A stretch of DNA of 64,000 nt, taken from NCBI RefSeq assembly GCF_004752005.1, contig NZ_CP038493.1, forward strand, positions 124,001-188,000. The letters are read 5' to 3'. The notes under the pieces were generated by a model. It was not told where the DNA came from. It saw nothing but the letters and a program-made list of their open reading frames with translations, and made no database searches. This DNA comes from Thalassotalea sp. HSM 43. GTDB lineage: Bacteria > Pseudomonadota > Gammaproteobacteria > Enterobacterales > Alteromonadaceae. A program made the translations under genes and the position numbers. Below, piece by piece: positions 21,083 through 26,603 of the stretch (its first letter is position 1; the number at the start of each line of letters is the position of its first letter).

Positions 21083-22657
21083 ATGAATTTAATTGATTTT
21101 TCATCATCCTTTGTTTCTTTATTACCCGCTGTCATCGCCTTGACACTGGCAATATTGACTCGCCGCGTTTTATTGTCGCTTGGGGTTGGTATCTTGCTTG
21201 GTGCCGTCTTACTTAATGACATGTCGATTACCGGTACGCTTGCTTATGTTGGCGCCTCGGTGAGCGGTGTGTTTATTGAAGACGGTGGCATAAACAGCTG
21301 GAATATGTCGATTGTGGCATTTTTAATTTTACTTGGCGTGATCACCGCTTTGTTAAGTGTCAGCGGTGCCACCTTAGCCTTTGCTAATTGGGCTATGGGT
21401 AAAGTTAAAAATCGCCGAGGCTCACAGCTGTTAGCGGCATTTTTAGGGGTCTTTATTTTTATCGATGACTACTTTAATTCCTTAGCCGTTGGTACCGTTT
21501 CAAGACCGGTAACCGATCGATATAAAGTATCTCGTGCCAAATTGGCCTATATCTTAGACTCTACCGCAGCACCTATGTGTGTGTTAATGCCAATATCTAG
21601 TTGGGGCGCATACATCATGGCCTTGATGGCAGGTATATTAGCAAGCCATGGCATCAGTGAATACACCCCGCTTGCAGCTTATGTTGCGTCGATCCCAATG
21701 AACTTTTACGCGTTATTTGCCTTACTAATGGTGTTTGCGGTGATCTACTTCGATCTAAATGTCGGTGCCATGACTCGCCATGAACAACAAGCCAGTGACG
21801 GCGACGATCAGAGCAAACAAGAAAGCCATGAATTACCGATGGCCATTGAAGGCGTTCAAGCAAAAGCACGCGACCTTATCACGCCCATTGTCGTTTTAAT
21901 TATCGCCACCATAAGCTTTATGGTTTATACCGGTGGACAAGCGCTTAGTGCCGATAATAAAGCATTTAATATCTTTGCCGCATTTGAAAATACCGATGTA
22001 GGTATGTCGCTGGTTTATGGTGGTTTAGTCGGCTTGGCGATGACGCTATTTACTGTAATTAAACGTGGCATAGGCTTTGCTGACATCTCAAAAGCGGCAA
22101 TCAATGGTGCAAAATCAATGCTTGGCGCGATTTTAATATTGCTGTTCGCTTGGACCATAGGCACGGTGATTGGCGATATGAAAACCGGTAGTTATCTATC
22201 GACGTTAGCCACAGGTAATATCGACATTGCTTGGTTTCCTGTGTTGTTATTTTTACTGTCAGGCTTTATGGCGTTCGCCACAGGCACATCTTGGGGTACA
22301 TTTGGTATCATGTTACCTATCGCTGGTGATATGGCGGCAGCGAGTGATATAGCGCTTATGTTGCCTATGCTATCAGCAGTCTTAGCGGGGTCAGTATTTG
22401 GTGATCATTGTTCACCGATTTCAGATACCACCATACTGTCGTCCACCGGTGCACGCTGTAATCACATCGATCATGTGGCTACACAACTACCGTATTCTTT
22501 GTCGATTGCGGCAATATCAGCGATTGGCTTTATCATTATTGGCTTTACCGGTTCAAGCAGTTTGGCGTTGCTGGTAACCAGCCTATTCTTTATCGGCCTT
22601 ATTGGTTTGTTGCGAATGATTTGTATTGAGCAGTCACGCAGTACCGCCCTAGCTTAA
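21083..22657 (+). CDS. lysW: NhaC-family transporter under lysine riboswitch, predicted lysine permease (LysW type)
   Basis: The 524-residue polytopic membrane protein (about 11-12 helices) belongs to the NhaC Na+/H+ antiporter superfamily. Conserved features include GVFIFIDDYFNSLAVG near residue 130, DSTAAPMCVLMPISSWGAY near residue 160 and GDHCSPISDTTILSSTGA near residue 440. A cytosolic loop rich in Gln/Asp/Glu lies at residues 230-265. Comparative genomics has linked NhaC-type genes behind L boxes with lysine uptake (called lysW). The riboswitch directly upstream makes that assignment much more likely than simple sodium/proton exchange. A strong terminator follows. Confidence 0.85.
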   Translation: MNLIDFSSSFVSLLPAVIALTLAILTRRVLLSLGVGILLGAVLLNDMSITGTLAYVGASVSGVFIEDGGINSWNMSIVAFLILLGVITALLSVSGATLAFANWAMGKVKNRRGSQLLAAFLGVFIFIDDYFNSLAVGTVSRPVTDRYKVSRAKLAYILDSTAAPMCVLMPISSWGAYIMALMAGILASHGISEYTPLAAYVASIPMNFYALFALLMVFAVIYFDLNVGAMTRHEQQASDGDDQSKQESHELPMAIEGVQAKARDLITPIVVLIIATISFMVYTGGQALSADNKAFNIFAAFENTDVGMSLVYGGLVGLAMTLFTVIKRGIGFADISKAAINGAKSMLGAILILLFAWTIGTVIGDMKTGSYLSTLATGNIDIAWFPVLLFLLSGFMAFATGTSWGTFGIMLPIAGDMAAASDIALMLPMLSAVLAGSVFGDHCSPISDTTILSSTGARCNHIDHVATQLPYSLSIAAISAIGFIIIGFTGSSSLALLVTSLFFIGLIGLLRMICIEQSRSTALA

Positions 22658-22674: not shown

Positions 22675-22717
22675 TAAAATAAAAGCCCAGTCGCTATCGC
22701 CACTGGGCTTTTATTTT
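22675..22717. terminator. Strong bidirectional terminator after lysW
   Basis: Stem AAAATAAAAGCCCAGT with its complement, around a 10-nt loop, has A- and T-rich flanks on both sides. It ends the transporter transcript and can also serve the convergent PII-like operon. Confidence 0.9.
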
Positions 22718-22803
22718 GTCTATAACACGTTAAGTCAGTCATGTGCGAATATCAGACTGTCTCTCTTGTCAGTAAAAACAATCACCTCAACAAAAAGAAA
22801 CTC

Positions 22804-23196
22804 TTAAGCACCGGTCTCCTCGTCCGCAACATCGGTCGGTAATTCGTAGGGAGTACAGCTTGTTATTCTCTGTTGCCAAACCACCCCGCGACCCGGCTTG
22901 TCCACTTCGGCGAACCAGAATATAAAATCGAAGATATCCTTTGCCTGCTCTTCTGCGCACGTTATAAATAAAATTTTGACCAGTTCCGACTCAGGTAATT
23001 TCCCTTGCTTGGTTTTAACTTCAGCAAGAGCACCGATGCCTCGGCAAGCCGAGCTGCCAGCGCTGGTGACACCAAACTTTTCACGCAGTTCTGCCAGCAG
23101 GCGTTTGTCCGTGCCATCGTCCGGCAAATAACAGTAAATGGCCTTACAAACCGGAAAGTTCGCCATGTGCGCAGCTAAATCGGCTGAGAGACTCAT
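22804..23196 (-). CDS. Second PII-like protein of the DUF1538 operon
   Basis: The 130-residue protein resembles the PII fold: strand KAIYCYLPDDG at residue 18, a helix with LLAELREKFGV, strand LVKILFITCAEEQAKDIFDFIFWFAEV near residue 68, and the PGRG turn that matches the PII C-loop region (D-K-P-G-R-G). The canonical T-loop with its uridylylated Tyr is absent. It contains Cys residues near positions 22, 50, 75 and 113. It overlaps the preceding PII-like gene by 4 bp, so it is coupled to it. I infer a regulatory, ligand-sensing partner of the DUF1538 membrane protein; its ligand is unknown. Confidence 0.6.
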   Translation of the reverse strand: MSLSADLAAHMANFPVCKAIYCYLPDDGTDKRLLAELREKFGVTSAGSSACRGIGALAEVKTKQGKLPESELVKILFITCAEEQAKDIFDFIFWFAEVDKPGRGVVWQQRITSCTPYELPTDVADEETGA

Positions 23197-23555
23197 TCTG
23201 GGTTCACGCCCAATTCTTTGCGAACGGCCTCAGGTACATAGGTCGCCACTCTTTCCACTGGGCTGACGAACATATAGCCAATACCGGGCACATTCAGTTC
23301 AGCGGCTTTATAAATTGCCTCAAACATTAAATCTTGCTGATCCGAAGACACCATAAACACAATCACGTCTTTCTCAGATTCTACAGCAACACCTAAGGCT
23401 CCAAATCGTTCTCGAACGCCCCAGCCGTGCACCGCGTGAACACTGGCAACGCGGGCTCCTACATTACGAGCCGCGAGTAACACAGACTCTGTACGTTTTT
23501 TATCTAACACGCAGGTGATAAGGGCTACATCGGTTAGGTAGATTATTTCACTCAT
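23193..23555 (-). CDS. PII-like signalling protein
   Basis: The 120-residue protein follows the PII pattern (two beta-alpha-beta units): ALITCVLDKKRTESVLLAARN at the N-terminus, GWGVRERFG in the place of the T-loop, EKDVIVFMVSSDQQDLMFEAIYKAAEL near residue 63, then PGIGYMFVSPVERVATYVPE as the C-loop. In PII proteins the turn before the T-loop and the C-loop bind nucleotides. The Tyr51 uridylylation site of GlnB/GlnK is not present, so regulation by GlnD is not expected. It overlaps both neighbours by 4 bp (ATGA), a tight three-gene operon with the DUF1538 protein. Confidence 0.78.
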   Translation of the reverse strand: MSEIIYLTDVALITCVLDKKRTESVLLAARNVGARVASVHAVHGWGVRERFGALGVAVESEKDVIVFMVSSDQQDLMFEAIYKAAELNVPGIGYMFVSPVERVATYVPEAVRKELGVNPE

Positions 23556-25339
23556 ATGATTGTTTGCGCCTCTTGTTCTTTTGAAACCATTTTCGCTTCT
23601 TTTGCTGCACGTATCTCAACATTCACCTTGTAGCGCGCCCAAAGCCCTGTAATCATCACGGTGATGATTGGGCCAATCGACGCCAGGCAAAGAATACCAA
23701 AACCTTCCACCGCATCGGTGGCGTTACCAAATCCAATCCCCATTGCCAGAACCAATGGTACTGTTATAGGCCCAGTTGTCACGCCCGCTGAGTCCCAGGC
23801 GACATTAACGAAGGTTTCGCTCGATAACATGGTCAGTACAATAGCGAGCAAATACCCGGGAACGATCAGCCATACCAACGGCCAATTAAATATCAACTTA
23901 GCAAGGCCAAGGGCAATACCAAAGGCAACCCCCACAGATACGGCAGTGATCAAGGTTTTCTTTTTAAATACGCCTTCTGTCAGCGTCTCTGCCGTGACGC
24001 CTAGCGCATTCAAAGCAGGCTCAGCAACCGTTGCGCCAAAACCGAGCATCCATGCAAATGCCAACGAAATGACCAGCCCGACCCCGTAAACGTAGATTGG
24101 TGAATTGGCAATACTGTTTATTTCCATGAATGCCCCTGGAACCAGACCACCAGCATTGCCACCCAGCTTCGATAATCCATACGTCAAACCGATATTAAAA
24201 ATGCACATGCCGATAATGGTGAGCGCAATGCCGTAGAATATCTCGCCTGGATGAGCCAGCCGCTCACGCAAGACGACGATAAGCACCAAAAAAAGAAAAA
24301 CCACCAACGGCGCTATGGCACGCACGCCGGAAATGATCTCCACGCCAGGGCTCTGCTCAAACCAGGACAACGGCGCCTGTTGAGCGGCGCTGGCTGTTAG
24401 CGTCGCTGCCTCAATGATCTCAGCCGTTGTTACGGTACTTGAAACATAAATGGCTAGTAGCATTACGCCAAGAACCGGAAACAGCGAGGCAAGTGTGACA
24501 ATGCCAAAGCCGGATAACCCGGATTCGCTTTTACCCGCAGCGCTAGCGATACCAATGCCAAGAGACAGCACCAACGGAACCGTTACAGGTCCTGTCGTCA
24601 CCGCGCCAGCATCCCACGCAAGCCCAAGCGTATTGCGCAGATCCAGGTCCATAGAACAATAGACTGTCAGCGCTAACATGGGCACGAGCGCACAATAGAT
24701 CAGCGGTTTCAGGCTCCAACCATAAAGAAAACGAACGGTACCAAGTACGGCAGCCATACCAACACTTACCCCCACAACCAAGACCAATGTATCGGCCCAT
24801 TCAGTGAGCAACGCATACAGATACGGGGCACGCTCAACAGAGATGTTTTGACCTGCCGCCTGCAGAGCACCAATTGCGGGCTCGGCAAAAGTAACGCCAA
24901 TCCCTAGAAGCAGCGTAATGAATAAAACCAGCGGTAATGGCGATTTACGAGGCAAGGTACTGCCGATGATCTCACCGAACGGCATCAGGCCTTTAGCCAG
25001 TCCTTCCATAAAGATCATCAGACCGACAATAACAGCAATCAGACCTCCTGTAATAACAAGCGAGTCTTCAACCACCTGATTAAGAATCAATAATTGAAAC
25101 AGTGCTAAATAGAGTGCAAGCGGCACCACTGCCCTGACTTGTTCCATCAACCGGGGAGACATATAGGACTGGATCAAGCTGAGCACTTCCATCGGCGTGA
25201 ATTTAGTGGGCACCACAGGAATAGCAATCAGATTGCCGTCACTATCAAAATTAGGCGTTGATATAAGACGATTTGCACTGTACTCGTTTTTTACCGAGCG
25301 TTGTGCACGCGTATAGTTAGCGTATGGGATTTCTGGCAT
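23552..25339 (-). CDS. DUF1538-family integral membrane protein
   Basis: The 595-residue protein has at least twelve hydrophobic segments and an internal duplication: DAGAVTTGPVTVPLVLSLGIG near residue 245 and DSAGVTTGPITVPLVLAMGIG near residue 530. Each is preceded by a TFAEPAI or TVAEPAL motif in its half (near residues 150 and 440). This two-repeat design is the DUF1538 family, which looks like a transporter with inverted or parallel halves; no substrate has been assigned to my knowledge. The N-terminal 60 residues are cytosolic and polar. It is first in an operon with two PII-like genes. The region is visibly richer in G+C than its neighbours. Confidence 0.85.
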   Translation of the reverse strand: MPEIPYANYTRAQRSVKNEYSANRLISTPNFDSDGNLIAIPVVPTKFTPMEVLSLIQSYMSPRLMEQVRAVVPLALYLALFQLLILNQVVEDSLVITGGLIAVIVGLMIFMEGLAKGLMPFGEIIGSTLPRKSPLPLVLFITLLLGIGVTFAEPAIGALQAAGQNISVERAPYLYALLTEWADTLVLVVGVSVGMAAVLGTVRFLYGWSLKPLIYCALVPMLALTVYCSMDLDLRNTLGLAWDAGAVTTGPVTVPLVLSLGIGIASAAGKSESGLSGFGIVTLASLFPVLGVMLLAIYVSSTVTTAEIIEAATLTASAAQQAPLSWFEQSPGVEIISGVRAIAPLVVFLFLVLIVVLRERLAHPGEIFYGIALTIIGMCIFNIGLTYGLSKLGGNAGGLVPGAFMEINSIANSPIYVYGVGLVISLAFAWMLGFGATVAEPALNALGVTAETLTEGVFKKKTLITAVSVGVAFGIALGLAKLIFNWPLVWLIVPGYLLAIVLTMLSSETFVNVAWDSAGVTTGPITVPLVLAMGIGFGNATDAVEGFGILCLASIGPIITVMITGLWARYKVNVEIRAAKEAKMVSKEQEAQTII

Positions 25340-25451: not shown

Positions 25452-26603
25452 TCACTCATCTAACATAGCTTTAAACTCATCTAAGTATTTCTGGTGCTGA
25501 TTTTGATGCCATTGCACCATAATGCGCGACTTTTCCAACGCCACAGTTTGAACTTCTATGGCTTTTTTAATGTTGCCCATGTCGGCATAGGCTTTTGCCA
25601 GAGACGCATGAGCATACGCAGAATCAGGGTATAATTCGGCAGTTTTTTGGTATATCGCTAATGCTTGTTTTGGCTCTTTTGTTTTAGCTAAATTTTTTAA
25701 TGAACCTTCTGCAGAGATATCAAAGCCATACTTTTCCCTCGACAAGGTTTGGTAATATTCAATAATAGCGTCGGCGCCTCGTTGAGAAATATCAGAATCT
25801 GCTGGTAAGTTGCTATGAATGTCGTCAAATAACACTTCTATACCGTTTACAAGCGAAATGATTGGCCGCGACATGTAGTAGTGCTTTTCATCGAAATCGG
25901 CAGTCCAATGCAACTGTGTCGTCGCTTTTTCATCAAGCAAAGCTTTAAACTGTTTAAATTCATCTGCATGCGATTTTTCATAAGCGTGATCGCCAATACT
26001 CATATACAAGGTTTTAATGCCATCGTAAGGCTGAGCCAATTTATCAGGAGCATCTGACATAACATTGGCGAAGTTATCATTTAGGCTTGGGCTTGAAATG
26101 ATGTAGGCATCAAACATACTGGGTCGATTTAACAGGGTATAAATGCCTAAAGCCCCGTTGCCCATAAAGCCGGTATAAATGCGAAAACCATTGGTGCGAT
26201 AACGTTTATCGACTTGGGTTAACACACCATTTTGCAAGATATCCAAAATCGTTTGATTATCCGGTTGTTGCACTAAATCATTAAAAACAGTTGCAAATTC
26301 AGCGTGATAATCGGCAGGGTTAACAATAATGGTTTCTAACCAGGGCCATTCACCATTATGACTTAACCAATCTTGCATACCGCTGATAAAGGTTTGACTT
26401 CTTGGGTGTAAATCGAAGAGAACGAAATAGGTTTTATCCGATTTGGTAGAGTAACTTTGTGGCAGGGTTACATGATAGGTGAGTGGCTCTTTAAATCCTT
26501 TATGAACCACTTCTATCGTTTCGATTTGATTTAGCTCGGTGATATCAACAGCTGATGCGTATGTAGAACATACAAAAACCAGTAAAGCGACAATCTGTTT
26601 CAT
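25452..26603 (-). CDS. Exported esterase-fold protein with TPR tail, catalytic Ser apparently lost
   Basis: After a signal peptide (residues 1-18) the 383-residue protein follows the Fes/esterase-D alpha/beta-hydrolase fold: YHVTLPQSYSTKSDKTYFVLFDLH, VDKRYRTNGFRIYTGFMGNGALG, YIISSPSLNDN, LYMSIGDHAYEKSH and DFDEKHYYMSRP. The usual nucleophile elbow G-x-S-x-G-G reads G-F-M-G-N-G near residue 150, so Met stands in the Ser position; the expected Asp and His are kept. Residues 310-375 form two TPR units. It may bind rather than hydrolyse its ligand. The ATG follows GGGAAGT. No promoter was identified. Confidence 0.78.
   Translation of the reverse strand: MKQIVALLVFVCSTYASAVDITELNQIETIEVVHKGFKEPLTYHVTLPQSYSTKSDKTYFVLFDLHPRSQTFISGMQDWLSHNGEWPWLETIIVNPADYHAEFATVFNDLVQQPDNQTILDILQNGVLTQVDKRYRTNGFRIYTGFMGNGALGIYTLLNRPSMFDAYIISSPSLNDNFANVMSDAPDKLAQPYDGIKTLYMSIGDHAYEKSHADEFKQFKALLDEKATTQLHWTADFDEKHYYMSRPIISLVNGIEVLFDDIHSNLPADSDISQRGADAIIEYYQTLSREKYGFDISAEGSLKNLAKTKEPKQALAIYQKTAELYPDSAYAHASLAKAYADMGNIKKAIEVQTVALEKSRIMVQWHQNQHQKYLDEFKAMLDE

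Follow-up and report, generated by a model that had tools for sequence, protein, structure and literature searches.

A DUF1538 membrane protein encoded together with two different PII-like proteins: a conserved transporter-PII cassette in Thalassotalea sp. HSM 43

Introduction

PII proteins are best known for sensing nitrogen and carbon, and some of them act directly on a transporter. According to the available part of one paper (PMC8352866), the T-loop of the PII protein inserts into the transporter exit in AmtB-GlnK, and in SbtA-SbtB the T-loop of SbtB, a protein that binds AMP or cAMP, partly blocks the exit of SbtA; the role of SbtB in vivo is called unsettled there. In methanogens, two PII homologues encoded in one operon, NifI1 and NifI2, regulate one target (excerpted text of PMC8809328). 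For the membrane protein family DUF1538, the sole characterised system that we found is UmpAB of Halomonas zhaodongensis, which is described in the accessible text of the original paper (PMC5484666) as exchanging Na+, Li+ and K+ for H+ in everted vesicles of Escherichia coli KNabc; DUF1538 also appears in a table of pH-adaptation genes in the accessible part of a machine-learning paper (PMC13255231). Here we describe a DUF1538 gene (D) followed by two genes for different PII-like proteins (P2 and P3), which were found in a stretch of 64,000 nucleotides from Thalassotalea sp. HSM 43 (positions 124,001 to 188,000 of contig NZ_CP038493.1, assembly GCF_004752005.1; hereafter the window).

The trio has in common with AmtB-GlnK and SbtA-SbtB that a PII-like gene lies beside a transporter gene, but AmtB-GlnK works with a canonical PII and with one kind of PII per channel. 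Like the two NifI proteins, P2 and P3 are adjacent, diverged paralogues that fall into separate clades and lie next to each other in 76 of 80 loci; the NifI target, however, is nitrogenase instead of a transporter, and control there involves 2-oxoglutarate (PMC8809328, in part). With SbtA-SbtB the trio shares the encoding of transporter and PII-like protein in one operon. As far as that system is described in the source above, it has one PII-like protein, binds AMP/cAMP and handles bicarbonate, whereas the trio has two PII-like proteins from which the canonical nucleotide residues are nearly absent.

Results

Organization and conservation of the three genes

The trio occupies positions 25339-22804 on the minus strand, in the order D (595 aa; 23552..25339), P2 (120 aa; 23193..23555) and P3 (130 aa; 22804..23196). 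The stop codon of D and the start codon of P2 share a 4-bp ATGA overlap (23552..23555; TCAT on the plus strand), and so do the stop codon of P2 and the start codon of P3 (23193..23196). This arrangement, with two DUF1538 repeats in the first gene, had been proposed in a first-pass annotation made from the DNA letters alone, and it was confirmed in the sequence and by Pfam.

An alignment scan of named genomes with D gave 418 relatives, the best 80 of which were used for the trio counts. It was found that two PII-like genes directly follow D on the same strand in 76 of these 80 loci. The other four show one PII-like gene (L126, L148, L149) or none (L101), and their contigs end 103 to 328 bp behind D. 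The recurrence of the trio is beyond chance, and the genes flanking it mostly differ from locus to locus; the three genes are thus kept together, contrary to the rare co-occurrence against which the annotation had suggested checking. Of 75 loci, 68 have the 4-bp overlap between D and P2, and an overlap of P2 with P3 is seen in 38. These spacings were counted in 75 of the 76 complete loci (L095, with a cut P3 lacking a start, was left out) under a rule that preferred an ATG at most 12 bases before the end of the previous gene, which can favour overlaps. Across 74 loci, pairwise distances of D were correlated with those of P2 (r 0.74) and of P3 (r 0.86), compared with at most 0.14 in 500 permutations. 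Two PII-like matches were also seen in 24 of the 29 loci L038-L066; four of the others stop at a contig edge (L051, L056, L058, L061), and L050 has 100 N behind D.

By record title, the hosts of the trio include Thiocapsa, Thiocystis, Allochromatium, Thiobacillus, Halothiobacillus, Nitrospira, Nitrospina, Sulfurovum, Desulfobulbaceae and several Pseudomonas. Many are metagenome-assembled genomes (MAGs), whose bin names may be wrong, as for instance Chloroflexi for L092. These results demonstrated that the trio is a real and widely conserved transporter-PII cassette.

Linkage of PII-like genes to DUF1538 genes

The linkage extends beyond the trio. Among the 295 genomes of the host's order, 78 carry DUF1538, mostly as two genes of UmpA/UmpB size. 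From these 78 genomes 30 loci were examined, leaving out two weak single matches (G152 and G209), and a PII-like gene was found beside DUF1538 in 29; the exception, L007, is a 2259-base piece that ends just past the first DUF1538 gene. The same neighbourhood was observed in 40 of 40 loci that we chose and fetched with more flank, in 5 of 5 loci of the genus, in 30 of 30 loci of the class (with the PII gene upstream in L258) and in 8 of 8 records fetched from a plasmid collection (H5 left out). These sets partly overlap, as 8 of the 40 chosen loci repeat order genomes and one class locus repeats the chosen set. Wherever neither a contig end nor a gap intervened, the loci examined thus all had a PII-like gene adjoining DUF1538, which suggests a regulated ion transporter with a control part that has escaped notice.

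The number and form of the PII-like proteins vary. A single PII was present in 33 of the 40 chosen loci, and two PII genes were also found at six more distant loci of one genus. A draft genome of the order (G029) contains a single example of a DUF1538-DUF1538-P-II fusion, one frame of 650 codons (L165:2494-4443, minus strand) in which both families score above the Pfam cut-offs. Some Clostridia have a long PII gene adjoining a two-repeat DUF1538 protein, and a second, weaker PII-like domain was recognised in the same chain. This second domain was clear in L193:4584-5276, weaker in L067:5355-6023, L069:4263-5264 and L192:4338-5018, and not significant in L191:4365-5054. The first domain scored 29 bits against the P2 profile in Peptoclostridium, 21 in Paraclostridium, 20 in Subdoligranulum, 12 in Acetoanaerobium and 4 (not significant) in Vescimonas. 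Two DUF1538 systems lie side by side at L177:2499-6714 and at L262:1462-4343.

The pairing of PII with DUF1538 was not discussed in the main texts of the open-access DUF1538 and UmpAB papers searched for PII, where the one match was a sequence stretch and the cable-bacteria papers were checked for UmpAB only; nor was it found by title or abstract start among the matches listed in broader literature searches. An earlier mention is possible.

The two PII-like proteins

P2 scored 28.6 bits against Pfam P-II (PF00543), above the gathering score of 25, and its profile found PII chains in the PDB with a best E-value of 2.6e-7. Residues were counted in P2 of 75 relatives and the window, and in P3 of 74 relatives and the window (L147 is cut); among the alignments, A1 held 11 of the 16 first-listed sequences, and A2, A3 and A4 held 46, 44 and 36 members including that of the window, picked for diversity or clean frames. 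As the annotation had noticed, the T-loop of P2 lacks the tyrosine of the GlnB type (Tyr51 in 0/76). With P3 as a single sequence, Pfam P-II gave no match up to an E-value of 1. A profile built from 46 P3 sequences nevertheless retrieved PII proteins from the PDB (best E 2.5e-5) and aligned with the P2 profile at an hhalign probability of 99.1%. The predicted structure of P3 (mean pLDDT 84.1) has a ferredoxin-like PII fold, and all 50 of the 50 listed PDB structure matches belong to the PII family by title. By profile-level homology and this predicted fold, and by these only, P3 is assigned to the PII superfamily, which agrees with its earlier description as a more divergent PII-like protein with several cysteines and with the fold prediction proposed as a check. 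P2 and P3 each form one clade (76/76, support 0.85, and 75/75, support 1.0). Together with the conserved operons and the fusion frame, the separate clades bear out the suggestion that two non-identical PII-like proteins are coupled to a DUF1538 transporter.

The T-loops of the two proteins differ in character. In P2 the R-E-R-F-G motif (23400..23414) is strongly conserved, with R48 in 76/76, E49 in 75/76, R50 in 74/76 and G52 in 76/76, while the loop of P3 is variable in length and sequence. The single PII of two-gene loci has a different T-loop motif, TFFG in 25 of 29. Both members of the pair carry a cysteine in the first strand, Cys15 in P2 (codon 23511..23513; Cys in 69/76) and Cys22 in P3 (codon 23131..23133; 68/75), and a cysteine in that region was seen in just 4 of 29 single PIIs. 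P3 has five cysteines in all; C51 is kept in 42/75, and the remaining ones are not conserved.

K90, R101 and R103 of GlnB, which we take to be phosphate/ATP ligands, are nearly all absent. K or R at position 90 was found in 0/76 P2, 0/75 P3 and 0/180 DUF1538-associated PII sequences; R or K at position 101 in 2/76, 3/75 and 5/180; and R or K at position 103 in 0/76 (an alignment gap in P2), 8/75 and 11/180, respectively. Of two other positions that we likewise assume to be canonical, Q39 was found in no P2 and no P3, and Tyr51 in 1/75 P3. The K58 column, a gap in all sequences, was left out of this judgement. Gating in response to nucleotides, which the annotation had expected by analogy with AmtB and SbtA, is consequently unsupported. 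By their residues, P2 and P3 do not appear to be canonical PII proteins of the GlnB/GlnK type; the two canonical PII genes of the host are located elsewhere in its genome.

The DUF1538 protein and its relation to UmpAB

D scored 350 bits against Pfam DUF1538 (PF07556; cut-off 22.6) over two stretches and is a fused, distantly UmpA-UmpB-like transporter. Repeat 1 comprises residues 63-297 (24449..25153) and contains E153 (codon 24881-24883) and D243 (24611-24613), and repeat 2 comprises residues 346-566 (23642..24304) and contains E440 (24020-24022) and D516 (23792-23794); these four acidic residues do not vary among the 36 sequences of alignment A4. Besides the two DUF1538 repeats, D has in common with UmpA- and UmpB-like relatives the Glu of an AEP motif and the Asp of an Asp-Gly-Gly-Val-Thr-Thr-like motif, which formed invariant columns when its halves were aligned with UmpA-like and UmpB-like halves (four of each in an alignment of 17 rows; the Halomonas sequence itself lies outside the comparison). 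Ahead of the first repeat there is an N-terminal extension of about 58 residues (25166..25339) with conserved Y-x-R and S-x-N-x-L positions and low pLDDT. Counted from the first possible start, an extension of at least 50 aa is present in 75 of 75 D proteins of the two-PII type.

D differs from UmpAB in several respects. UmpAB consists of two separate proteins and D of one fused chain, and, among the rows listed, the identity of two-gene relatives with D is 31-44% over a half. No PII gene is among the four open reading frames listed for the 4.2-kb cloned UmpAB fragment, which end with umpB (PMC5484666, for the fragment and in the accessible text), and PII does not occur in the main text of that paper. 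The annotation's statement that no function had been described for the gene set had to be corrected for DUF1538, since UmpAB, a Na+(Li+,K+)/H+ antiporter, belongs to this family (same paper, in part).

Proposed mechanism

The cassette most probably represents a new form of PII-controlled transport. In the reading that we prefer, and to which a probability of about 0.5 is given, it forms one regulated transporter, a cation/proton antiporter gated by the pair of PII-like proteins, which possibly act as a heteromer. Its parts differ in strength. In our judgement, regulation of D by PII-like proteins is quite probable; cation/proton exchange by D is somewhat favoured; and a mixed oligomer of P2 and P3 stays tentative, with chances a little short of even. 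P2 and P3 would probably be made from the same message and would sit on the cytosolic face of D, gating it, and D would most likely exchange monovalent cations for protons. Because the T-loop of P2 is conserved and that of P3 is variable, we infer that P2 probably touches the transporter through its Arg-Glu-Arg loop and that P3 is a likely modulating partner, perhaps within a mixed oligomer. For PII docking, the conserved tail at the N-terminus of D is a candidate. As the pattern of residues argues against the usual ATP mode, the signal read might be ions, pH, another small molecule or the state of the first-strand cysteines.

A cation substrate is suggested by UmpAB and by the neighbours of the trio. 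A Na+/H+ exchanger gene (PF00999) directly adjoins the trio in 9 of the 80 loci (L114, L117, L118, L122, L134, L136, L140, L141, L144), lying upstream on the same strand in 3, downstream on the same strand in 4 and divergently in 2. All nine neighbours carry PF00999, and 7 of 9 have a C-terminal cyclic-nucleotide-binding domain; the loci are related and hence not independent. For background, four PF00999 genes occur in the 4.0 Mb of the host, and the 80 loci together span 0.97 Mb.

Several observations weigh against this reading. D reached 219 and 171 bits with the NCBIfam equivalog models of UmpA and UmpB (NF041627 and NF041628), compared with cut-offs of 490 and 500, and four two-gene relatives, which match one or the other model best at 328-376 bits, likewise fall under them; since the scores of D are far under the cut-offs, its substrate may differ from that of UmpAB. 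The AEP motif is missing from some repeat halves at the distant two-PII loci L171-L176. Any PII gene belonging to UmpAB itself seems dispensable, because antiport was measured from a clone with umpB as the last of its listed open reading frames. Two PII stretches were recognised by Pfam in one of the five clostridial proteins, that of Peptoclostridium. Finally, SulP-like genes lie within 7 kb of the trio in 10 of 80 loci (six of the ten Pfam-checked), so D may carry another substrate.

Alternative explanations

The strongest rival has no mixed oligomer: P2 and P3 would each assemble into a homotrimer of their own, and the two would bring different signals to one transporter. Canonical PII proteins are homotrimeric, each of the two proteins is a full PII domain in a clade of its own, and most of the chosen DUF1538 loci manage with a single PII (33/40). 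Nevertheless, two PII-like domains are joined in one chain in some Clostridia, neither gene is missing from any of the 76 loci where the contig is long enough, and the first-strand cysteine occurs in P2 and P3 alike. Separate homotrimers are held to be unlikely, if a serious contender.

Less probable still is that D, though gated by PII-like proteins as proposed, moves a different solute, such as bicarbonate or some other anion, to serve carbon metabolism. The SulP genes just mentioned would fit this explanation (in Thiocystis, Thiocapsa and Allochromatium four of them directly follow P3), and one neighbour has a sub-threshold match to an LCIB-type carbonic anhydrase. Many trio hosts are, by what we presume of their lifestyles, sulfur or nitrite oxidisers. 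The PII-like SbtB acts on a bicarbonate transporter (PMC8352866, in the part available). On the other side, a Pfam search of the host genome gave no RuBisCO large chain, which makes a CO2-concentrating role unlikely there. The trio is also found in Pseudomonas species, and the adjoining Na+/H+ exchangers and the antiport by UmpAB point to cations.

That the PII-like proteins serve as permanent structural or assembly subunits without switching is the least likely of the three: the tight linkage at the examined loci, the covalent fusion and the loss of canonical nucleotide-binding residues would suit it, but UmpAB works from a clone without a listed PII gene, and the T-loop motifs conserved within each class fit a make-and-release contact.

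Returning to the preferred antiporter gated by a PII-like pair, a wider form of it can be considered, in which DUF1538 transporters are generally PII-gated cation/proton antiporters and those of this clade have in addition an obligate mixed oligomer reading a non-nucleotide signal (an ion, pH or cysteine redox state). This generalization is doubtful as a whole. Under it, a PII branch for ion and pH balance would have been overlooked because the sole cloned example was described without a PII gene. A steady link of PII-like proteins to a family of cation/proton antiporters would bring ion and pH homeostasis into the range of PII control. It would also offer a likely function for the genes next to DUF1538 that are annotated 'P-II family nitrogen regulator', and an example of one transporter under two PII-like proteins at once.

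Origin of the cassette

The G+C content of the trio genes is 0.48-0.51, compared with 0.432 for the window. Of 15 genomes of the genus, that of the host alone has the fused D; five others have the two-gene type and nine have neither. Across the 295 genomes of the order, P3 turned up in one. The nearest relatives, at 80-81% identity, are three MAGs, one labelled Woeseiaceae and one Alphaproteobacteria. The higher G+C, the patchy distribution in the genus and the position of the nearest relatives in MAGs of other groups make acquisition of the trio by transfer likely. The same proposal in the annotation thus gains support, although no empty site for the insertion was found in the genus comparison.

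Neighbouring genes

Some trio loci of Thiocapsa and Allochromatium (L105, L110, L112) have the trio near SulP, PPK2 and a HlyD-type membrane fusion-like gene, the last of which was below the Pfam cut-offs in a relative.

In the window, a strong hairpin with A/T flanks (22675..22725; z -8.85 and -8.88 on the two strands) lies between P3 and a convergent PF03553 antiporter gene (21083-22657, plus strand). It is a probable two-way terminator, absent from the output of a consensus terminator scan. Homologues of the PF03553 antiporter with 75-76% identity are present in two relatives of the genus whose genomes lack D, so its pairing with the trio looks accidental. Just upstream of the trio, on the minus strand, a gene at 25452-26603 encodes a protein whose N-terminal part looks esterase-like by eye, with no Pfam match in that part, and whose C-terminal part matches TPR.

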